Virus record (IMG/VR): IMGVR_UViG_3300033149_001537
Coordinates: 1 to 50,095 of that record
Length of the DNA stretch: 50,095 nucleotides
Strand: one strand, 5' to 3'
Source of the DNA: a virus
Part shown: positions 4,705 through 31,855 of the stretch, in pieces
Layout of the letters: the number at the start of each line of letters is the position of its first letter
How positions within the stretch are numbered: position 1 is the stretch's first letter
Notes under the pieces: model-generated
Told to the model about the DNA's origin: nothing
The model's input: only the letters and a program-made list of their open reading frames with translations
Databases searched by the model: none
Position numbers and translations under genes: made by a program

Positions 4705-4719
4705 AAATATAGAAAAGTG

Positions 4720-4748
4720 TTGACAAAGCACTTTTTTTATATTAGTTT
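4720..4748 (+). promoter_or_regulatory. candidate promoter for zinc-ribbon and RAMP-like genes
   Basis: TTGACA at 4720-4725 with a 17-base spacer leads to a weak -10, TAGTTT, at 4743-4748. A TAATAT lies further down at 4751-4756. The sequence AAGTGTTGACA at its upstream edge is repeated at 34,016, and nearly so at 25,341, which supports real promoter use. Confidence 0.5.
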
Positions 4749-4772: not shown

Positions 4773-4901
4773 ATGAACATAGAAGTTAGGGAAGTTAAAT
4801 GCAAGAGATGTAATCACCAATGGATACCTCGAAAGAAAGAGGTTCGGGTGTGTCCAAAGTGTAAAAGCCCGTATTGGGATAAGGAAAGAACAAAAAAATA
4901 A
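4773..4901 (+). CDS. zinc-ribbon protein, 42 aa
   Basis: A 42-residue protein beginning at ATG 4773 behind AAAGGGGTGAAG. Two CxxC pairs, CKRC and CPKC, are separated by a basic strand, the arrangement of a small zinc ribbon, and it ends in a lysine-rich tail. It is the first gene after the 4.72-kb promoter and lies directly upstream of the RAMP-like gene, so the two are probably cotranscribed. A nucleic-acid-binding role is likely for such ribbons but is not proven here. Confidence 0.7.
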   Translation: MNIEVREVKCKRCNHQWIPRKKEVRVCPKCKSPYWDKERTKK

Positions 4902-4928
4902 CATTCACTTTAACAAAGCGAGGACAGA

Positions 4929-5507
4929 ATGAAGGTTCAAATCATATTCACAGAAGAGTTGCTTGGAACGGCAAGTTCTAACCCAGAAGTTCACAGAGAG
5001 TTTATTGCTTCAAAGGCTCCTGATGCACAAAGCCGGGAAGAAGAGGTTGAGTCTTTGGGTGTTGAAGAGGTGACGGAAAAGGCAATGACGGTGTTTCCCA
5101 GAGAAGACGGAAAGCCATTTTTGTGGGATTATCAAATTAAGGGGTTTTTCAAAGATGCCTGTGGTATGCTTAGACGTGTCAAAGGCACAAAAAGCGCTTC
5201 TCTGAAGGCATTTAAAAAGATTATTGACGGGTTGGTTTTTGTTAATCCCCGCAAAATATTCATTAATATTAATGGGGAAATTGGAGAGTGCCAGCGACCA
5301 TTGAGAGCACAAACTGCTCAGGGGGAACGGATTGCCTTGGCTCACAGCGAAACCATTTCTGAAGGCTCTACTATTGAAATAGAAATAAATTGTCTTAATG
5401 GTGCGTTGGAAAAGGTAGTTGAAGAGTGGCTGGATTATGGCAAGCTCAGAGGATTGGGACAGTGGAGAAATTCAGGTAAGGGAAGATTTGATTATAAGGT
5501 TTGCTAG
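4929..5507 (+). CDS. RAMP-like protein of unknown function
   Basis: A 192-aa protein starting at ATG 4929 with AGCGAGGACAG upstream. The N-terminus (VQIIFTEELLGT) reads as the first strand of a ferredoxin-like fold. The C-terminus, near residues 174-188, has a glycine-rich segment (GLGQWRNSGKGRF) resembling the glycine-rich loop of RAMP proteins, the RNA-binding fold of Cas5, Cas6 and Cas7. Phages are known to carry unassigned proteins of this general kind, but I see no Cas neighbours. It follows a zinc ribbon and is immediately followed by a GC-rich non-coding tract ending in a strong terminator, so the RNA and protein may form one unit. No catalytic residue is evident. The RAMP call rests on pattern only. 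Confidence 0.5.
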   Translation: MKVQIIFTEELLGTASSNPEVHREFIASKAPDAQSREEEVESLGVEEVTEKAMTVFPREDGKPFLWDYQIKGFFKDACGMLRRVKGTKSASLKAFKKIIDGLVFVNPRKIFININGEIGECQRPLRAQTAQGERIALAHSETISEGSTIEIEINCLNGALEKVVEEWLDYGKLRGLGQWRNSGKGRFDYKVC

Positions 5508-5847
5508 GGCTATGTGCAGCATTGGTGGTTTGGCACTGCGGTGGCGGAGCAAGGCCCCGTTCAGCAAAGCTGGGGTGTAGCTCAGGGTAGCTCAGTAACG
5601 CAAAGGCATTGAGCAGCAGCGCTATGCTTGAGAGAGCGAGGCAAAGGCGATGCAATGTTGAGCAAGGCCGAGGCTTTGTCCGGCAGCGGCTAAGCATCAC
5701 ACCGCAAAGGCATGACCTAGCATTGCAAAGGCCTTGTTTTGCTTTGCTAAGCCCAGCAATGGCTAAGTAGAGCGACACGCAGCACAGAACAGTTTGCAGA
5801 GGCGCGACACTGCAAGGCAAAGCAATGTGTTGCAAATGAGCAGCAAT
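5508..5847 (+). ncRNA. GC-phased non-coding tract, probable RNA
   Basis: About 340 bases of markedly GC-rich sequence between AT-rich flanks, with stops in the forward frames. GC dinucleotides recur at steps of 5, 6, 10 or 11 (for example 5533, 5538, 5544, 5549, 5554, 5564, 5569, 5580, 5590, 5600, 5606), an average near 5.2. Variants of GCAAAGGC begin at 5600, 5641, 5704 and 5725, often 21 or 42 apart. It starts right after the RAMP-like stop and ends in an intrinsic terminator, so it should be the 3' end of that transcript. Its function is unknown. A protein-bound RNA or a DNA-structural element are both possible. Confidence 0.6.
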
Positions 5848-5880
5848 AAAAGAGCGTTTCTTCGGAAAGGCTCTTTTTTT
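5848..5880 (+). terminator. intrinsic terminator with UUCG loop
   Basis: AAAGAGC pairs with GCTCTTT. After one G-G mismatch, TTTC pairs with GAAA, closed by the very stable C(TTCG)G tetraloop. A run of T follows. It ends the zinc-ribbon, RAMP-like and phased-tract transcript. Confidence 0.9.
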
Positions 5881-5894
5881 TATTTAAAAACAAG

Positions 5895-5923
5895 TTGACT
5901 TAAAATAAAAAAAAGAGTATAAT
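5895..5923 (+). promoter_or_regulatory. strong sigma70 promoter of the head operon
   Basis: TTGACT at 5895-5900, a 17-base spacer and a perfect TATAAT at 5918-5923. It lies just after the terminator of the RAMP-like unit and before the gpW-like gene. The expected start is near 5930. Confidence 0.85.
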
Positions 5924-10208: not shown

Positions 10209-10715
10209 ATGGCTGCAACCAGCTTAGAAGCGCAATTAATAAGCGAGTCGGGGCCAACCGAAGTACAATGGACTTATACCAACAGTACGGGTGGTTCTCT
10301 GAGTGCAACCTTTGGTGAGGTTATTGGTATACCCACAGATTCGGGCTTTCGGGTTGCTGCTGTTGTAGAGAGTGGAATTAATGTAGCGACTCCGGGGACT
10401 CTTGCCGATGGCGAGGTTGGTCAGGTTCTTATCGCTGGAAGGGTTAAAGTCCCTAAAGACACGGCGGTTTCTTTTGGTCAAGGGGAAACCTGTTGGTGGG
10501 ACGCTTCCACAAACAAGGCAACTAATTCTACCACCGCAGATACAATGAGTGACTTTGTGCTTGGCAGGGTTGTTAATGTTGCGGCAACTGCGGATGCTAC
10601 AGTGATTGTTGATTTGAACGAGGGGCCGTATGCGGGGAGCCTTGGCTCTTCGTCAAGCTCATCCAGCTCTTCAAGTTCATCGAGTTTATCTTCGTCAAGC
10701 TCAAGTAGCGGATAA
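10209..10715 (+). CDS. capsid decoration protein with Ser tail, copy 1
   Basis: A 168-aa protein. Residues 1-146 match the DUF2190 type of capsid decoration protein: repeated glycine turns, then AGRVKVPKDTAVSFGQGE and a following VLGRVV strand. Residues 147-167 (bases 10647-10709) are a tail of serines broken by one leucine, encoded by mixed TCN and AGY codons, and the protein ends in Gly. It is followed by two paralogues; the 26 bases around the start are almost identical in copies 1 and 2. Decoration proteins bind the outside of the expanded capsid, so the tail would project from the head. Confidence 0.75.
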   Translation: MAATSLEAQLISESGPTEVQWTYTNSTGGSLSATFGEVIGIPTDSGFRVAAVVESGINVATPGTLADGEVGQVLIAGRVKVPKDTAVSFGQGETCWWDASTNKATNSTTADTMSDFVLGRVVNVAATADATVIVDLNEGPYAGSLGSSSSSSSSSSSSSLSSSSSSSG

Positions 10716-10727
10716 GGAGAATAAAAT

Positions 10728-11321
10728 ATGGCTGCAACCAGCTTAGAGGGACAATTAATAAGTGAATCCGGCCCGACCGAAGTACAGTGGACTTATACTA
10801 ACGGTACAGGCAGTTCTCTGAGCGCAACCTTCCATGAGATTATTGGCATTGTTGGGGATTCGGCATATCGAATTGCTGCTGTTGTGTTGGGTGAAACTAA
10901 TGTAGCAACAGCGGGGACAATTGCCGATGGCGAGGTTACTCAGATTCTTATTGCTGGAAGAATTAAAGTTCCCAAAGACACGGCGGTTTCTTTTATTCAA
11001 GGACAATCGGCAAAGTGGGATTATTCTACCAATAAAGCAACCAATGCTGCTACGGGTAGTTTAATGGAAGATTTTACTTTGGGTAGGGTTGTCGCTGCTG
11101 CGTCAACTGCGGCGACCCATGTAATAGTTGATTTGAATGAAGGGCCGTATGCTTTTAGTTTGGGTTCGAGTTCATCGAGTTCTTCGAGTTCTAGCTCTTC
11201 GAGTTCGTCGAGTACTTCGAGCTCTTCTAGTTCTTCGAGTTCATCGAGTACTAGCTCTTCGAGTACTTCCAGCTCTTCGAGTTCATCGAGTTCATCTTCG
11301 TCAAGCTCAAGTAGCGGATAA
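10728..11321 (+). CDS. capsid decoration protein with Ser tail, copy 2
   Basis: A 197-aa paralogue of the previous gene, sharing the opening (MAATSLE.QLISESGPTE) and AGRIKVPKDTAVSF. Its C-terminal serine tail is about 50 residues (bases 11166-11315), broken only by a few Thr. It ends in Gly like copy 1. The ribosome binding site AAGGAGAATAAAAT is the same as for copy 1, which points to tandem duplication. The tail has grown or shrunk relative to copy 1, so tail length is evidently free to vary. Confidence 0.75.
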   Translation: MAATSLEGQLISESGPTEVQWTYTNGTGSSLSATFHEIIGIVGDSAYRIAAVVLGETNVATAGTIADGEVTQILIAGRIKVPKDTAVSFIQGQSAKWDYSTNKATNAATGSLMEDFTLGRVVAAASTAATHVIVDLNEGPYAFSLGSSSSSSSSSSSSSSSSTSSSSSSSSSSSTSSSSTSSSSSSSSSSSSSSSSG

Positions 11322-12935: not shown

Positions 12936-13496
12936 ATGGCACTATACGAAATGATACTAGCTTTACACATGGACGACGATCCATTACCTTCTTTAAAAGA
13001 GGGTGACATGAGCGGGGTATATTCATACCCTAAAGACCACGGATTTGAGGCATTAAACAGATACTTAATAGTTATAGTTAGGACAAGCGCTTCTCTTAAA
13101 AAAATAGAAAAAATGTGTTACGAGTGGGTCTGTAAATCGATTAAAACGTCTAAGCTATTGTCAATGGATTATGTTGATATGTTAGGAATAGAGAGTTCTC
13201 ATAACTATTGTGTGGCTTTCAAAAAAAGGTACTCAATATCTTTTGACACCTTGATCCCGAAAATATCAGGAATAGATTTAGGTAAAGCAAGGGACAGTAA
13301 AAAAAAGTATCAACCGTGCAAAAAGACTTCTCAAATAGTAAATTATTTTGACGGTAGACCTGGATATCATTTACTTACGTCAAAAGACATAGAAACATCT
13401 ACAAGCGGGATTGATAAAGAGCAGGAAATCATAATTGATTTAGATTTAACGCCAATCATTTATGATAAACTAGCAAAAGAAATGGTGAATCCTTAA
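12936..13496 (+). CDS. hypothetical structural-module protein, 186 aa
   Basis: Unrecognised 186-aa protein between two tail-completion candidates. It ends in TAATGG with ATG 13496 of the next gene overlapping its stop. The sequence has moderately hydrophobic strands (YLIVIVRTS) and several Cys. A role in the connector or tail is inferred from position alone. Confidence 0.45.
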   Translation: MALYEMILALHMDDDPLPSLKEGDMSGVYSYPKDHGFEALNRYLIVIVRTSASLKKIEKMCYEWVCKSIKTSKLLSMDYVDMLGIESSHNYCVAFKKRYSISFDTLIPKISGIDLGKARDSKKKYQPCKKTSQIVNYFDGRPGYHLLTSKDIETSTSGIDKEQEIIIDLDLTPIIYDKLAKEMVNP

Positions 13497-15799
13497 TGGC
13501 TTCAGCACGAAGAACAGGAACAAATGAGCATATAGAAACCTACGGGGCCGGTAAAGACTGGACTGAAGGTCAAGGGGGTGCATGGGAAGCTGTTTATGAT
13601 ATTGATTTAGTGACAGCAACTAAATCTGAGATATTAGAAGTTTACAAAGAGGGTGGCGGCGGTGGTTTGTGGGATGAAACTACTATCCGGTTGAATGGTG
13701 CAACAACAAGTGCGCTCTATTTGAGAATAATCCGACCTGCTCCTGGAGAGGGGCATTCCGGCATTCCTAAAGATGATGGTAGTGTAGCAGGTTTCCGTTC
13801 AACTACCGACCAGCACATGCTAGGAGCGGATGAAAATAATTCTCAATTACAGGATTTGGTTGGAAAACAAACACTTAATACTGCAAATACACGATTTACA
13901 TTTGGCACAGCAAATCATGATGAGGCTTATGTTGTGGGCTGTCTCGCATTTGATGGCACCAATGCAGGCGCGGGAGATGTAGGAGGGTTTCAAGCTTATA
14001 ATAATGCCGCTGAAACCTGCGGATTTATTCTTTGTGAAGCGCACAATATGCCGGGTATTTCGTTTCAGTTATATCCCGCTCATGCTAGTGCGGTATGTAT
14101 TGGATATAATTGTTTGTCTGAAGGCAATACGGTAGGGTTTCATAATGCATCTAATACAATTGCAGCAATTATTAAAAATCTTCAATCAGATAATAACGGT
14201 ACGGATTATACTGATGTTGGAGGTGGCTGGACAGATACAGCCTGCGGCTCGAAGGATGCGACAAGCCCCACAGTAGCTTTACGAGGACAAACATATACTT
14301 ACGTAGATTCAGGGGGAGACGATTTTCATGCTACCGCAGGCTCAGATTCTATTGACAAAGGCACAGATTTAAGTGCTGATGGTACTTACGCCTTTGATGA
14401 TGATATTGATAAAGTTGTAAGAGCGGGCACATGGGATTTGGGTTTTGATGAATATGTTGCCAGCTCTTCCTCGTCTTCCTCATCGTCACAATCATCATCA
14501 AGTAGCAGTTCGTCTTCATCATCCAGTTCTAGTTCGTCAAGCTCCTCGTCTTCGAGTGGTAGTAGTTCAAGCTCATCATCGTCAAGTTCGAGCAGTTCTA
14601 GTAGTAGTTCATCAAGTAGCTCTTCGAGTTCGAGTAGTAGTTCAAGTTCTTCTTCGAGTAGTTCATCATCATCGAGTAGCAGTTCAAGTTCCAGTAGCAG
14701 CTCTTCGTCATCATCAAGCAGTTCAACTTCTTCTAGTTCAAGTAGTAGCTCCAGTTCAAGTTCCTCATCGAGCTCATTAAGTAGTAGTAGTTCGTCCTCT
14801 TCGTCATCGTCGTCAAGCAGTTCCAGTTCTTCAGCTTCATCCAGTAGCTCTTCTTCTTCGTCAAGCAGTAGTTCTAGTAGTAGTAGCTCTTCAAGCTCGT
14901 CGTCTTCTTCTTCTTCATCTTCAAGCAGTTCCAGTTCATTGTCATCATCGTCCAGCTCATCAAGTTCATCAACATCCAGTAGTAGTTCGTCAACCTCATC
15001 CAGTTCCTCAAGTTCCTCGTCTTCGAGCAGTAGCAGCTCAAGCTTTTCGTCAAGTAGCTCGTCAAGTTCCTCATCATCGACATCCTCATCGTCAAGTAGC
15101 AGTTCCAGCTCTTCAATATCGAGTAGCAGTTCGTCGAGCAGTTCCAGCTCTTCGTCTTCTAGTTCCAGCAGTTCTTCCTCATCGTCACAATCATCATCCT
15201 CATCATCAAGTAGCTCGTCTTCGTCATCATCATCCAGCTCAAGTCAATCAAGCTCCAGTTTGTCAAGTTCCTCGTCCAGCAAATCCAGCGCTTCATCATC
15301 TTCAACAAGTTCATCCAGCTCCAGCAGTAGTACGCGCCCTGATACAATAGTTGCGAGAATAACAGACAATGTAATAACTTCATTAAATGGCAAAACAATA
15401 TATGGCGGGACTTCAATTTCTGATTATGAAAGATTATATTTGCACATAAATGACAGATATCCTTACATTCTTGTTCAGGGGCCATATTGTGAAATTGAAA
15501 CAGAAATAGATAATGTTGCAGATACAGCCATACAATATGTCATTAGATATTATATAGATGTAAATGATGAATCGACTATTGTTGATACTGAAATAACGTA
15601 TATAGTAAGAGATGTTGCAAAGGATATAATTAAAGCTGTTATGGTAGACCAATGCAGGGGTGGTTTGGCAGAATATACTGAAGTAACAGAATATGGAATT
15701 TCTTTTGAGGAGATAGATAATCAAATTGAATATTATGTTTATGTTATTATAGAAGTGCAGTCATTAATTAATTCAGATGACCCTTATTTAGCAGGTTAA
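13496..15799 (+). CDS. beta-helix-like domain, Ser linker, tail-terminator-like domain fusion
   Basis: A 767-aa chimera. Residues 1 to about 322 look like a right-handed beta-helix or adhesin domain: short Gly/Asn/Thr-rich strands, many Cys in QAYNNAAETCGFILCEAHN, and Asp-rich turns, as in surface-binding phage proteins. Residues 323-612 (bases 14462-15331) are a roughly 290-residue tract of serine interrupted by single Leu, Thr, Gln, Ala, Phe or Ile. Residues about 613-767 are homologous to the whole next gene (15801): both share ERLY..I..RYP, G.Y.EIET and YYID.ND at matching positions. The adhesin may therefore be displayed on the virion by a duplicated tail protein. It could not be split into separate genes, because the frame is uninterrupted. 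Confidence 0.65.
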   Translation: MASARRTGTNEHIETYGAGKDWTEGQGGAWEAVYDIDLVTATKSEILEVYKEGGGGGLWDETTIRLNGATTSALYLRIIRPAPGEGHSGIPKDDGSVAGFRSTTDQHMLGADENNSQLQDLVGKQTLNTANTRFTFGTANHDEAYVVGCLAFDGTNAGAGDVGGFQAYNNAAETCGFILCEAHNMPGISFQLYPAHASAVCIGYNCLSEGNTVGFHNASNTIAAIIKNLQSDNNGTDYTDVGGGWTDTACGSKDATSPTVALRGQTYTYVDSGGDDFHATAGSDSIDKGTDLSADGTYAFDDDIDKVVRAGTWDLGFDEYVASSSSSSSSSQSSSSSSSSSSSSSSSSSSSSSSGSSSSSSSSSSSSSSSSSSSSSSSSSSSSSSSSSSSSSSSSSSSSSSSSSSSSSSSTSSSSSSSSSSSSSSSSLSSSSSSSSSSSSSSSSSSASSSSSSSSSSSSSSSSSSSSSSSSSSSSSSSSSSLSSSSSSSSSSTSSSSSSTSSSSSSSSSSSSSSSSFSSSSSSSSSSSTSSSSSSSSSSSISSSSSSSSSSSSSSSSSSSSSSSQSSSSSSSSSSSSSSSSSSQSSSSLSSSSSSKSSASSSSTSSSSSSSSTRPDTIVARITDNVITSLNGKTIYGGTSISDYERLYLHINDRYPYILVQGPYCEIETEIDNVADTAIQYVIRYYIDVNDESTIVDTEITYIVRDVAKDIIKAVMVDQCRGGLAEYTEVTEYGISFEEIDNQIEYYVYVIIEVQSLINSDDPYLAG
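14462..15331 (+). repeat. 290-codon poly-serine tract
   Basis: 870 bases coding almost only for serine. TCA, TCG, TCT, TCC, AGT and AGC are mixed without a fixed period, so the protein is repetitive but the DNA is not a simple repeat. This implies selection on the amino acid rather than recent slippage. It generates long false frames on both strands, such as 14445-14780. Confidence 0.95.
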
Positions 15800-26513: not shown

Positions 26514-26747
26514 ATGAGTGGAGTAAACAGTAAGTTAAAAACCGCATTAGATTCACAGAAGTATTTTGTTACTATTAGTCATCGGGACAATAATAATCAA
26601 TTACAGCATTTTTGGGTTACAAAAAACTATCTCAAAGATGATTTAATGCCAACATTGGAGCATTTGAAAAAAGAGATTTATGGTCAAGAAATAAACAGTA
26701 GCGCCCAACAAGTTGAAGAAAGGGCCGGAAAGGCACATGGAGAATAA
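26514..26747 (+). CDS. hypothetical protein, 77 aa
   Basis: A small soluble 77-aa protein with AGGAGGACG ahead of ATG 26514. It begins with a short helical segment and ends in a charged tail that overlaps the next gene. It belongs to the sugar operon by spacing. The family is unknown. Confidence 0.55.
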   Translation: MSGVNSKLKTALDSQKYFVTISHRDNNNQLQHFWVTKNYLKDDLMPTLEHLKKEIYGQEINSSAQQVEERAGKAHGE

Positions 26748-27375
26748 ACTAGGCACTGTAATAAGCGTTGATGAGCTTATAAAAGCATTACAGCCCTATT
26801 CGGGTGGATGTGCTATCACTCCTTTGGATTTGGAATATGTATGTGATGAAGACACGAAAGAAACCAAAATAAAAATCAAATACTTCAACGACAACCTTAC
26901 GTTAGGACAGGTAAAGTCAATGATGGTAGACCCTTATGATGACTCCGAAAGTGCAGATAATGTGCTGGAAGAATGGGCTGTAGTAGCAAAACAGTATCAC
27001 ATTTCTTACGTTCTTGTGTGTGGGACGTGTCTTGGTCTTTACCGGGATAGCAAATATATTAAAGGCGACAACGATATTGATATTTGTATTAATGTCAAGG
27101 ATTTAGAGCAAACAATTAAAGCATTAAAAGAACGTGGTTTTCGGCTTGGAAGGCGGGGTGGTAGTCAGCATTTCATGAAAAATAATATTTTATTGGACGT
27201 ATGGCTAAAGCCTCGATTTGAACCGCCTTATACTTATGTTGAATACAAAAACAATCTCTATCCAGCACCGCATGATGTTGATAGATATTTAACTACCCTG
27301 TACGGGGATTGGCGTACACCTTCAGGACAATCTGCTAAAGAAGCAGTGTTCGGGGCTTATCGTGAAACAGTTTGA
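26737..27375 (+). CDS. LicD/nucleotidyltransferase-like protein
   Basis: A 212-aa protein. ATG 26737 (after GGAAAGG) is preferred over the in-frame TTG 26713. The centre has YVLVCGTCLGLYRDSKYI and GDNDIDICI, the G-S/T...D-x-D arrangement of the LicD branch of the nucleotidyltransferase fold. LicD transfers phosphocholine to sugars in some bacteria, and related proteins add other phospho-groups. Here it may decorate the glycan built by its neighbours. The exact substrate is unknown. Confidence 0.6.
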   Translation: MENKLGTVISVDELIKALQPYSGGCAITPLDLEYVCDEDTKETKIKIKYFNDNLTLGQVKSMMVDPYDDSESADNVLEEWAVVAKQYHISYVLVCGTCLGLYRDSKYIKGDNDIDICINVKDLEQTIKALKERGFRLGRRGGSQHFMKNNILLDVWLKPRFEPPYTYVEYKNNLYPAPHDVDRYLTTLYGDWRTPSGQSAKEAVFGAYRETV

Positions 27376-28294
27376 GCCGGGAGTGCATAAGTTAATTCAT
27401 CATTTTGAGCATTTGGATGATATGCGGGAAGGATGTTCATATATAGCGCCTATTCATGTGTCTGTATGGCCCACCCTGAAGTGTCAGTTAAAATGCTCGT
27501 ATTGTTTATGTAGGAACGAAACCGGGGATGAGGAGCTTGATATTGAGCAATTTAAAAAGGCTGTGGATTTTTTAGCTGGTCATGGAACTAAAGCAATTGA
27601 ATGGTCTGGCGGGGGAGAGCCTTTGCTGTGGCAACATTTTGAAGAAGCGGTTAAGTATGTATTCAGTCAGAATATTAAAATGTCTCTTATCACTAACGGG
27701 CTGGAACTCAATAATCTCAGAGAGACACTTCTTATATATTTTGAGTGGATAAGAATAAGCGTTGTTTCAATGAAGCAGATAGAGGGTATTGATATTGAAC
27801 GGATAAAGAAGCATACGCGGGTGTCGCTTTCTCATATAATTCCAAGGAAACTTTATAGTAGTATTTTTGATATGTTAGATGAATTGCATGAATATTCAAA
27901 AACACACAATCTTATAACCCGAATAGCAATATCCCGACCGTCTGGGACAGAAAGCGAAAACGGGGTTGCTCTTAAAGTAAGCGAATATGGTGATCCGTTC
28001 TTTATGTCACACAAAGAGCCGGGAGAGCCAAAAGGCTGTTACATGGCATGGATAAGGGCGGCGATTGATTGGCGGGGAAATTTTCTACCCTGTCCGGCTG
28101 TAGAGTTGTCAGAAGAATCAGAAGGGTATATCCCTGATAAGTTTAAGCTATGCCATATAAGTGAGCTTGAAAAGTGGCTTTCCAGTGGTGCACATGATTT
28201 AGGTTTTCGGTGTTCATTCTGTAATTGTGGCAAAGAGATTAATGATTTTGTACATGAATTATTTACCGAAATTGAGGATGTGGATTTTGTCTAA
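27362..28294 (+). CDS. radical SAM/SPASM-type enzyme
   Basis: A 310-aa enzyme starting at GTG 27362 and overlapping the LicD-like gene. CQLKCSYC at residues 41-48 is the CxxxCxxC site that binds the radical-generating 4Fe-4S cluster, followed by SGGGEPLLW, the GGE-type SAM-binding motif. The C-terminus has further cysteines (GCYMAW, LPCPA, RCSFCNC), as in SPASM domains that hold auxiliary clusters. Such enzymes modify peptides, sugars or nucleosides. Its place among glycosyltransferases suggests sugar or protein modification. The substrate cannot be told. Confidence 0.8.
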   Translation: MKQFEPGVHKLIHHFEHLDDMREGCSYIAPIHVSVWPTLKCQLKCSYCLCRNETGDEELDIEQFKKAVDFLAGHGTKAIEWSGGGEPLLWQHFEEAVKYVFSQNIKMSLITNGLELNNLRETLLIYFEWIRISVVSMKQIEGIDIERIKKHTRVSLSHIIPRKLYSSIFDMLDELHEYSKTHNLITRIAISRPSGTESENGVALKVSEYGDPFFMSHKEPGEPKGCYMAWIRAAIDWRGNFLPCPAVELSEESEGYIPDKFKLCHISELEKWLSSGAHDLGFRCSFCNCGKEINDFVHELFTEIEDVDFV

Positions 28295-28922
28295 ACGATA
28301 CACAGGTGATTTTTACGATGCTGATTATTTTGAGCGCGGCAAACAATCCGGGAAGGGTTGGTTGGAAAATTACCATTGGATGCCAAGGCGTTCTTTTAAA
28401 GAAGCATTTGCATTTGTGGACCATCTTGGTTTAGATGAATCAAATCATATATTAGATTTTGGATGTGCTAAAGGTTATTTGGCTACAGCTTTCAGGTTTT
28501 TGGATATACCTGCTGATGGATGTGATATTTCCTCTTATGCACTTGAATTTGCTCCTGCCTATTGTTGGAATTGCACAGAAGATAGCTCATGGGAAGGCCG
28601 GAAATATACTCATGTTGTCATAAAAGACGTATTAGAGCACCTTACAAAAGACCAGTTACCCGAAGTACTCGATAATATTGCAAAAGTAGCTCCTGTAATA
28701 ATGTGTGTTGTTCCTATGGGTGATAATGGGGTTTATAGAATACCTGAATATCATGTGGAAGTATCCCACCAAATAGCAGAAAGTGAATCGTGGTGGACAA
28801 GTGCATTTTCAAGATACGGATGGGAAGTTACTGACAGCCAATATCATATACCGGGGCTGAAAGATAATTGGTCGTATCATCTAACTGGAAATTGTGTATT
28901 TGTGCTTGAAAGGCAAAAATGA
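28287..28922 (+). CDS. SAM-dependent methyltransferase
   Basis: A class I methyltransferase of about 211 aa. The SAM-binding strand-loop ILDFGCAKGYLATAF is clear, with the acidic residue DGCDIS at the end of the second strand. TTG 28287 has GAGG at the right distance; ATG 28278 is an alternative but too close to that site. It overlaps the radical SAM stop. The region after it (DVLEHL) resembles small-molecule or sugar methyltransferases rather than DNA methylases. Confidence 0.75.
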   Translation: MSKRYTGDFYDADYFERGKQSGKGWLENYHWMPRRSFKEAFAFVDHLGLDESNHILDFGCAKGYLATAFRFLDIPADGCDISSYALEFAPAYCWNCTEDSSWEGRKYTHVVIKDVLEHLTKDQLPEVLDNIAKVAPVIMCVVPMGDNGVYRIPEYHVEVSHQIAESESWWTSAFSRYGWEVTDSQYHIPGLKDNWSYHLTGNCVFVLERQK

Positions 28923-29695
28923 ACGTAGCAATATTCACAATAGTTAGAAACGAAAAATATTTTCTCCCTATATGGTTGAGACATTACTGTGGAGTTTTAG
29001 AGCAGGCAGATATATACATTATAGACAATGGAACGACTGATGGTAGTACCGACAATGTGGGCTGTCCCGTTATATTTAAAACGTCTAAAACGGCTCATAA
29101 TGCAAGGTGGATGCTTGAAACTGTTAAAGAATTTCAAAAGAAATTGTTGGAACGATATGATTATGTAGTATTTGCTGAAGCTGATGAATTAATTTTCCAC
29201 CGACATAATGAACTTTTTAAATATATAAAATATTGTGATAAAAATATTGTCCGGTGTGATGGATATGATGTTAAACAAATCCTTGGTAACAAGAAAAAGA
29301 AAATTGACAAAGAGCCTGAAATAAACCTCGAAAACCCTTTATTAAGCCAAAGAAAACGGTGGTATAGTAATACAAGATTCTGTAAGTCTCTGATAGCAAG
29401 AGTCCCGGTAAGGTGGGATATAGGGTTTCATCTATGCAAAAACCATTCCATTATTGACAAAGATATTGTACTTGCACACCTCCATAAGCTTGATATTGAT
29501 TTGGCATTAAAGAGAAATCTTGAAAGAATGAATATCACAATGGACAAAAAGTCTCAGATGACACGCAAGGGGTGGCAGAATTTCTTGAAAACTAAGGATG
29601 GTTTGGAAAAGTTTTGGGAAACCGGGCATAATGGTATGGGTAAGTATGAAGACATTCCTGATTGGATAAAAAAACATGAAATGCATTACTTTTGA
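28919..29695 (+). CDS. GT2-type glycosyltransferase
   Basis: A 258-aa GT-A fold enzyme. It opens with MNVAIFTIVRNEKYFLPIW, the usual nucleotide-sugar strand, followed by IIDNGTTDGS and FAEADELIF, which carries the metal-binding acidic motif. The later aromatic and His residues fit the acceptor half (GT2 or GT92-like). ATG 28919 overlaps the methyltransferase stop. The sugar donor is not predictable. Confidence 0.7.
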   Translation: MNVAIFTIVRNEKYFLPIWLRHYCGVLEQADIYIIDNGTTDGSTDNVGCPVIFKTSKTAHNARWMLETVKEFQKKLLERYDYVVFAEADELIFHRHNELFKYIKYCDKNIVRCDGYDVKQILGNKKKKIDKEPEINLENPLLSQRKRWYSNTRFCKSLIARVPVRWDIGFHLCKNHSIIDKDIVLAHLHKLDIDLALKRNLERMNITMDKKSQMTRKGWQNFLKTKDGLEKFWETGHNGMGKYEDIPDWIKKHEMHYF

Positions 29696-30281
29696 TGATT
29701 TCCATAATTCTGTATACTGTATAGCGTTTCCTATATTTAAAAAATATAGAGTTCCTGGAACGGTGTTTGTAAATGGGGCAAACCTTGACTTGTTAGCTAT
29801 TAAGGAATTAAAAGAAATGCAGGGTGCAGGATGGGAAGTTTCTAGTCATGGAATGAACCACAAGAGATTGCCAATGCTTACGGCAAGAGAGATAAGATTG
29901 GAGCTTGAGGAAAACATTGACCTTCTCAGAGCTAATGGATTTACAGGTAAAGGCCTTGCATATCCCTGGGGAATGTATACCAATTCGGTGATTGATATAG
30001 TTAAGGAGTATCATACTTACGCAAGGGCAACGGTAGCCACAAGGCATTCTCACCATGAAGAAAAGTATCATATAAGAAGCACTGTTTTGAGCTGTAAAAC
30101 TATGCTTGAATCTGCGGTAAATTCTGAAAATAATTTTTATCACGGACACCATATAAGCTATGCAATCAACAGCCATTCATGGAGTCCGGACTGTTTAAGG
30201 TTATTAATAAAGGCATTGAAACATAAAGGAGAAAGGTTGATGACGGGTGGAGAATTTCATCGATGTAAAAATACCGTTTGA
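29676..30281 (+). CDS. NodB-type polysaccharide deacetylase
   Basis: A 201-aa carbohydrate esterase family 4 enzyme. TFDDF gives the catalytic base and metal Asp (residues 7-8). SHGMNHKRL supplies the HxxxH metal ligands at 58 and 62, and AYPWG is the usual third motif. Such enzymes remove acetyl or similar groups from GlcNAc-containing polymers. There is no signal peptide, so it would act on a cytoplasmic intermediate. It overlaps both neighbours, firmly inside the operon. Confidence 0.8.
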   Translation: MKCITFDDFHNSVYCIAFPIFKKYRVPGTVFVNGANLDLLAIKELKEMQGAGWEVSSHGMNHKRLPMLTAREIRLELEENIDLLRANGFTGKGLAYPWGMYTNSVIDIVKEYHTYARATVATRHSHHEEKYHIRSTVLSCKTMLESAVNSENNFYHGHHISYAINSHSWSPDCLRLLIKALKHKGERLMTGGEFHRCKNTV

Positions 30282-30855
30282 GCCGGGGAAGCGGTTGGGA
30301 TATGCTGTTAATCGTGCAATGGAAACTGTTGGGGATTGGGTTTTAATCCTTGACCATGATGTGTTGGTTTCGCTTAATCCGTATTGGTATCAGATATGCC
30401 AGAGAGCTATTAATGAAGTTGGCGAAGATGCGGGGTGGATTACATGCGTGACGAATAAGATTGGTTGCCCGCTTCAGAAGGCCGATTACAGCATTGAGAA
30501 TGGTGATTACAGATATAATAAAGATTATGATAGCCGTACAATGGATATGCACTTTGCGCTTGCCGAAGAGCTTTATAAGAACAACAAAGGCAAAATTGAA
30601 GATATAACCATGGATGCAAAACGTTGGAAGCTGTCAGGTTTTTTTATTCTCACTCGCAAAAAAGTTTATATGGATGTTAAAGAAAAATGTGGGTTGCCGG
30701 ATGATAAATTTATTGGCTGGGACAATTATTACAATGATAGACTTTTAGAGTTGGGGTATAAGTTATATCTCATGCAGGATTTATATGTCTATCATGGGTA
30801 CAAAAGGCTTTGGAAAAACACTGATTGGGGAAAGGGGATTGTGGGAGGTGCATAA
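30247..30855 (+). CDS. glycosyltransferase, GT-A fold
   Basis: A 202-aa enzyme from GTG 30247. LILDHDVLV carries the DxD-type metal motif, and the later DKFIGWDNYYNDRLLELGYKL is a typical acceptor-side segment of GT2-like enzymes. The domain lacks the usual first strand, so it is short for the family. The gene overlaps the deacetylase and the next glycosyltransferase. Confidence 0.65.
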   Translation: MENFIDVKIPFEPGKRLGYAVNRAMETVGDWVLILDHDVLVSLNPYWYQICQRAINEVGEDAGWITCVTNKIGCPLQKADYSIENGDYRYNKDYDSRTMDMHFALAEELYKNNKGKIEDITMDAKRWKLSGFFILTRKKVYMDVKEKCGLPDDKFIGWDNYYNDRLLELGYKLYLMQDLYVYHGYKRLWKNTDWGKGIVGGA

Positions 30856-31855
30856 CTACGCCATATTTGTAGCAGCGACACCGAATTACATAGCTTACTT
30901 AAACCCACTTCTTAACTCAATTGAGAAGCGGAAATTATATGAGCATTGTAATCTAACGGTATATGTGTTCTACACAGAGGGCTTTTGTCCTGAATACATT
31001 GATATTATCAAACAGGCGTATAGCTTTACTGTTTACCCTATGAAAATGGTACGTTCTGATTTCCCTGAATTAAACCCAAAGATGAAAGAAATCGAATTTG
31101 TTAAACGCACTCGGTACAAGAAAATGATACAGCTTGCCCTTGAATATGAAGCGGTGTGCCTATTAGACTGTGACATGTTTGTAGTATCTGAACAGTTTAT
31201 AGACTTGTTTAATCTCATAAAAGGCACTGATTATTGTATAGGATGTAATGAAAGGTTCAAGTGGTCGAGTGGTGCCTATAAATTCAACGACAAAGAATTA
31301 TTAATTCCTCGCGGTGGTAAGATGTTTCAATTTGTCTGTAATACACCGGCGATTATGGACATGCATAAGTGGAGGCCGGTATTCGAAGCATACTGTAAAA
31401 TAGCCTCTGGGGGCACTCAGATTAAGCATGGTGGCGTTAAGGGGATTGGCGATATAACATGCTGGAATCTTGCAACTATGTACTGTGCGATGAATGATAA
31501 AATGATAATGTTTCCTATGGAAACTATGGCCCAGGTGCATCAAACATATTTTCGAAACCGGACATACCCTATTGATGAGAATGGATATTGGTATACTTTT
31601 TCAGGGGATAGAATCTATACAATTCATGGAAGAGTTGCGCGTCCTAACTTTGTTGAAGGTGTGATATGCGGAGGAAAGGGCTATAGAGAGCTTCATAAGG
31701 GAAGGCCGGACATAGATAAAGTTGAAATTGAGGTACGGAAAGGGCTAAAAGCCATTCAAAAAGAATGGTATGATTTAAATTATAATGGAAAAGTCAATCT
31801 TGACTTATATTATAAGTATGGACTAAAAAAGGAGATGGAAAATGGGTTTAATTAA
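30848..31855 (+). CDS. glycosyltransferase, GT8-like
   Basis: An enzyme of about 335 aa. GTG 30848 overlaps the preceding stop and follows AAGGGG at fair distance; the frame is open further up to ATG 30785. NYAIFVAATPNYIAYLNPLLNSI and LLDCDMFVV give the nucleotide-sugar strand and DxD motif expected for GT8-like or related GT-A enzymes. The C-terminal HGRVARPNF is unusual. It is the last enzyme of the cluster. Confidence 0.65.
   Translation: MHNYAIFVAATPNYIAYLNPLLNSIEKRKLYEHCNLTVYVFYTEGFCPEYIDIIKQAYSFTVYPMKMVRSDFPELNPKMKEIEFVKRTRYKKMIQLALEYEAVCLLDCDMFVVSEQFIDLFNLIKGTDYCIGCNERFKWSSGAYKFNDKELLIPRGGKMFQFVCNTPAIMDMHKWRPVFEAYCKIASGGTQIKHGGVKGIGDITCWNLATMYCAMNDKMIMFPMETMAQVHQTYFRNRTYPIDENGYWYTFSGDRIYTIHGRVARPNFVEGVICGGKGYRELHKGRPDIDKVEIEVRKGLKAIQKEWYDLNYNGKVNLDLYYKYGLKKEMENGFN

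Follow-up and report, generated by a model that had tools for sequence, protein, structure and literature searches.

A probable VIPR-type cassette in a virus genome: a Cas7-type RAMP gene beside a phased, guide-RNA-like tract

Viral Interference Programmable Repeat (VIPR) systems, described in a 2026 bioRxiv preprint (PMC13142463) and, as a discovery of that year, proposed as ancestral to CRISPR, are RNA-guided systems that phages use to silence their rivals. As outlined there, a VIPR system consists of a phage RAMP and vrRNAs built of 9-16 YNNGG repeats; the NN dinucleotides base-pair with double-stranded DNA, skipping one base, to silence competing elements. The same outline distinguishes seven types, some of which may have 'a related consensus' and 'staggered arrays', and states that the vap accessory gene is 'typically' present, hence not strictly required (PMC13142463).

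The cassette analysed here lies between the terminase and portal genes of a virus record, within the window (the whole stretch of DNA under analysis, 50,095 nt). It shares with VIPR type II, represented by phage SUSP1 and a P. fulva prophage, a small phage RAMP with a G-loop; an adjacent, same-strand, non-coding tract of 5-nt tandem repeats that combine a fixed G with variable bases; and a minimal locus, in phages and prophages, with no CRISPR array. Because of its RAMP fold, its phased tract, the co-occurrence of the two, their same-strand polarity and the profile homology to the SUSP1 Vipr, we consider it highly likely that the cassette is a VIPR-type system, a member of this recently described kind. 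The initial annotation had proposed a protein-coated regular RNA; such coating probably does occur, and a guide RNA of the VIPR kind fits better than an RNA that is only coated.

The RAMP gene and its cassette

On the plus strand, the cassette contains a 42-aa zinc-ribbon ORF (4773..4901), the gene of a 192-aa, Vipr-type RAMP protein (4929..5507), 340 nt without a plausible gene (5508..5847) and a closing intrinsic terminator with a UUCG tetraloop and a T run (about 5848..5881), whose predicted folding energy is -14.6 kcal/mol (z = -4.2 versus shuffles), in agreement with an earlier description of about 340 non-coding nucleotides before a UUCG-capped terminator. A terminator-like hairpin with a T run (4711..4738, strand unassigned; -9.9 kcal/mol, z = -4.6) parts the cassette from the preceding genes; the borders of the transcription unit are marked by terminators on both sides. 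Just downstream and outside the cassette, a promoter-like site on the plus strand (TTGACT-17-TATAAT, 5895..5923, matching 11 of 12 consensus positions) probably serves the following head genes. Searches of the window for tRNAs and for Rfam families at gathering level were both negative.

The zinc-ribbon ORF had been placed in the same transcript as the RAMP gene. The ORF is indeed present, with weak matches to zinc-ribbon profiles, and no similar ORF lies near the other homologues of the RAMP gene; because it is not conserved at other loci, it is rejected as a partner and is probably incidental, outside the system.

Searching Pfam, PHROGs and NCBIfam with the single 192-aa sequence returned nothing useful. 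An alignment of 49 members underlies the AlphaFold2 model (pLDDT 87.4, pTM 0.81). In a Foldseek comparison with the PDB, the leading matches to this model are type VII Cas7 and type III Csm3 (E down to 1.3e-7, TM about 0.58), and nearly all of the best 50 fold matches listed are Class 1 CRISPR effector complexes. Moreover, the family profile matches type VII Cas7 (1.1e-5) and Csm4 (8e-4), in alignments that cover the glycine-rich C-terminal loop (LRGLGQWRNSGKGRF), and 17 of the 49 members match the PADLOC Cas7_IIId (Cas7 type III-D) model, the best at 6e-5. By its predicted fold, the protein is a Cas7-type RAMP, as its glycine-rich end had led the initial annotation to suspect, and it has the single RRM-like core and glycine-rich loop that characterise a VIPR RAMP. 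The same family includes A0A8S5R426 from Siphoviridae sp. ctcMb1 (BFVD; 66% identical, E 2.3e-32), whose name, 'Cas system-associated RAMP superfamily protein', comes from automatic annotation only; we know of no description of its function or of an adjacent RNA.

Longer RAMP relatives were also observed. Two loci encode relatives of 317 aa (L061, 5001-5954), with no clear tract beside it, and 287 aa (L065, 4989-5852), with a long mid-protein insertion. The Porcincola intestinalis genome (L137 / G001; contigs C1, C5 and C6) seemingly carries three copies of a longer relative, whose matches are split, with a gap in the middle.

Phasing and grammar of the tract

The 340-nt tract starts directly after the stop codon of the 192-aa ORF and is a candidate guide-RNA (vrRNA-like) tract on the plus strand, built of GCNNN units with interspersed 6-nt GCRANG units. 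It contains 52 GC dinucleotides, and 35 of the 51 gaps between them measure 5 (15 times), 6 (8 times), 10 (11 times) or 11 nt (once), with a best Fourier period of 5.2 nt. The autocorrelation at lags 10, 21, 26, 31 and 36 (z = 3.9-5.0) was reached by none of 2000 dinucleotide shuffles, and at lag 5 it has a z of 3.4 (p = 0.001, 2000 shuffles). The recurrence of GC about every 5 nt, originally read by hand, is thus far beyond dinucleotide shuffles of the tract. The tract parses into 62 units from 5528 to 5847; its folding is close to that of shuffles (z = 0.7 to -1.7), whereas both bordering hairpins fold far better. We infer from the sequence that the tract functions as RNA.

Homologues of the RAMP gene were drawn from 63 viral contigs, 4 phage records and 67 loci in bacterial or archaeal genomes. 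When the base after G may vary by lineage and loci above the score threshold are counted, a phased tract lies directly beside the RAMP gene, on the same strand, in 124 of 131 non-redundant homologous loci, a set drawn from phages and from many phyla of bacteria; elsewhere in these loci, control windows seldom score above 13. The initial impression of a widespread family is borne out by this count. The base after G divides the tract-positive loci into GC (99), GA (16) and GT (9) forms, and loci that were negative at first look turned out to have GT or GA versions. Neither GT nor GA is palindromic, so their position on the RAMP coding strand gives the tract a polarity that is sense relative to the RAMP gene. 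In nearly all relatives, a tract with a period of 5.13-5.22 abuts the RAMP gene, either immediately downstream of the stop codon or immediately upstream of the gene. Among the recognisable neighbours, an HTH repressor, SSB and integrase occur most often, placing the loci in temperate early regions, and no conserved accessory gene (vap or other) was found. As initially described, the locus has no CRISPR array, and no other cas genes were found there.

Overall, the tract unit can be written as N-G-X-N-N, where X is C, A or T by lineage; the mean step is 5.16 nt, and the family's tracts each form one uninterrupted stretch of 200-1700 nt. Units of 6 nt account for 630 of 2121 GC-to-GC units and mostly have the form GCRANG, so written that an extra base precedes the next GC; this extra base recurs about every 5-7 units, about 31 nt. 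Variants of 'GCAAAGGC' had been noted at distances of 21 or 42 nt; the motif is recovered, and its usual family-wide spacing is instead 5-7 units (26-36 nt, centred on 31). Likewise, the step of about 6 nt that had been carried over from Cas7 gives way to a measured step of 5 nt with an occasional 6.

Between homologous or duplicated tract copies, the G differs at 1.8% of sites, compared with 13-17% for the three N positions, as expected for scaffold and guide bases, respectively. The spacer bases are close to random in every locus. The tracts contain internal tandem duplications, and the data suggest that arrays grow by in-phase duplication. Tandemly duplicated tract segments were seen in L093, L096, L103, L045 and L040, at distances such as 165, 82 and 206 nt. 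Further, segments of one tract recur within L025 around 2422, 3888, 5762 and 7810, some of them up to about 96% identical.

Comparison with SUSP1-type VIPR and CRISPR effectors

The SUSP1 locus was located in KT454805. Sequence similarity between the window family and the SUSP1-type Vipr is low: hhalign aligns the two over their full length (P 5.6e-5, probability 66%), and the window-family HMM, run against 296 SUSP1 reading frames, ranks the SUSP1 Vipr first at an E of only 0.074. When parsed with a similar script, SUSP1-type tracts consist of about 11-16 GGYNN units at a strict 5-nt step. Set against these SUSP1-type (type II) arrays only, among the seven types of the preprint, the window family differs in several respects. 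Its unit begins with a variable base (N-G-X-N-N) instead of the fixed G of GGY-NN, departing from the exact GGY/NN consensus; its 6-nt units recur about every 5-7 units, whereas those of SUSP1-type tracts are mostly at the tail; and its tract is continuous, up to about 1.7 kb, and touches the gene, in contrast to SUSP1-type units, which have about 11-16 repeats and a tail. Type II vrRNAs are discrete and have an invariant structured 3' tail; no tail was recognised in the window tract, and no vap gene in the window family.

The type VII Cas7 and Csm3 proteins of Class 1 CRISPR systems share with the window protein the RAMP fold and G-loop and are, like it, expected to polymerise on RNA. They differ in their 6-nt step (5 nt here), at about 14% identity, and in having the other cas genes and repeat-spacer array that the window lacks; membership in Class 1 CRISPR-Cas was rejected on the latter two grounds. 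An array interspersed with hammerheads was also rejected, as neither a hammerhead nor any other Rfam element was found in 12 loci.

If the assignment holds, the family would add more than 120 loci to VIPR-type systems, carried by phages of gut Clostridia and of many other phyla, with a quantitative array grammar (N-G-X-N-N and a beat of about 31 nt) that is absent from characterised type II arrays. It would offer a small system for studying the reading of a repeat scaffold by a RAMP and the differences in decoding rule among types. SUSP1-type Vipr relatives are themselves widespread, with 129 records in the phage collection, mostly annotated as hypothetical protein and including Pseudomonas, Gordonia and Mycobacterium phages.

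Proposed mechanism and alternative readings

By analogy with the published account of VIPR (PMC13142463), the window system would co-purify with RNA, bind DNA and silence its targets. The Vipr RAMP would oligomerise along the transcript of the neighbouring tract, each subunit covering one 5-nt unit, with the G and the lineage-specific base (GC in the window) as its fixed scaffold. The variable bases between scaffold positions would be presented to pair with the double-stranded DNA of a rival phage or other mobile element, and binding there would block transcription. Less probably, the guide grammar is unlike the published VIPR code, with three variable bases per 5-nt unit, possibly contiguous, and G-X flipped out; the extra-base beat of about 31 nt may then cut the long transcript into words or successive guides.

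A variant of the same system, in which all three variable bases of each unit are read and the guide pairs with contiguous DNA while the G-X pairs are flipped out, is rather unlikely. The base before G is variable here and a fixed G in SUSP1-type arrays, and in the full data the bases before and after G-X follow the preferences of naturally adjacent bases (z = 4.3-4.9). However, this signal falls to a z of 1.9 in a stricter, de-duplicated subset, where a distance-3 model fits equally well; because of this weakness, the contiguous reading is not claimed. Nor was a contiguous target found: k-mer analysis detected no enrichment of contiguous NNN words, and BLAST of NNN concatenations gave a best E of 0.05 against phage records and a best of 1.6e-4 per genome, A/T-rich, against 397 genomes of one host family. 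When the NNN triplets are treated as codons, some runs look protein-like, but in-frame stops show a depletion of only 15% and no convincing family matches emerged; a coding reading was rejected.

A structural RNA that is regular and coated by the RAMP, with a role in packaging or as decoy or scaffold but no sequence-specific target, is improbable. Conservation of the G scaffold alongside varying spacer bases and expansion by tandem duplication are both compatible with such a structural RNA, as is the outcome of the target searches. In particular, a brute-force search of 1.5 Mb of fetched loci at pitches 2-5, under several readings, gave nothing above chance, its one outlier being AT-rich; the 1-nt skip rule gave no target above chance in limited databases; and exact gapped or contiguous patterns in IMG/VR were at chance or without a match. 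Yet a pure scaffold has no obvious need for near-random spacer bases in every locus, and the related SUSP1 system is described as finding DNA with its variable bases (PMC13142463).

The rival reading offered at the outset, a DNA signal in which GC phased at half a helical turn would bend or position the DNA, is very improbable: the mean step is near half a helical turn, but the gaps take discrete values (5 or 6, the extra base being marked by a G), the GT and GA versions keep to the RAMP coding strand with a lineage-specific base after G, the tract is consistently beside a gene with an RNA-binding fold, and terminators bracket it as a transcript.

Elsewhere in the window, head-decoration-like and structural proteins (10209-11321 and 13496-15799) contain very long poly-serine stretches encoded by TCN codon repeats, and the late region (26713-31855) holds, by eye, a cluster of radical-SAM, methyltransferase, glycosyltransferase and deacetylase genes, an unusual cargo.
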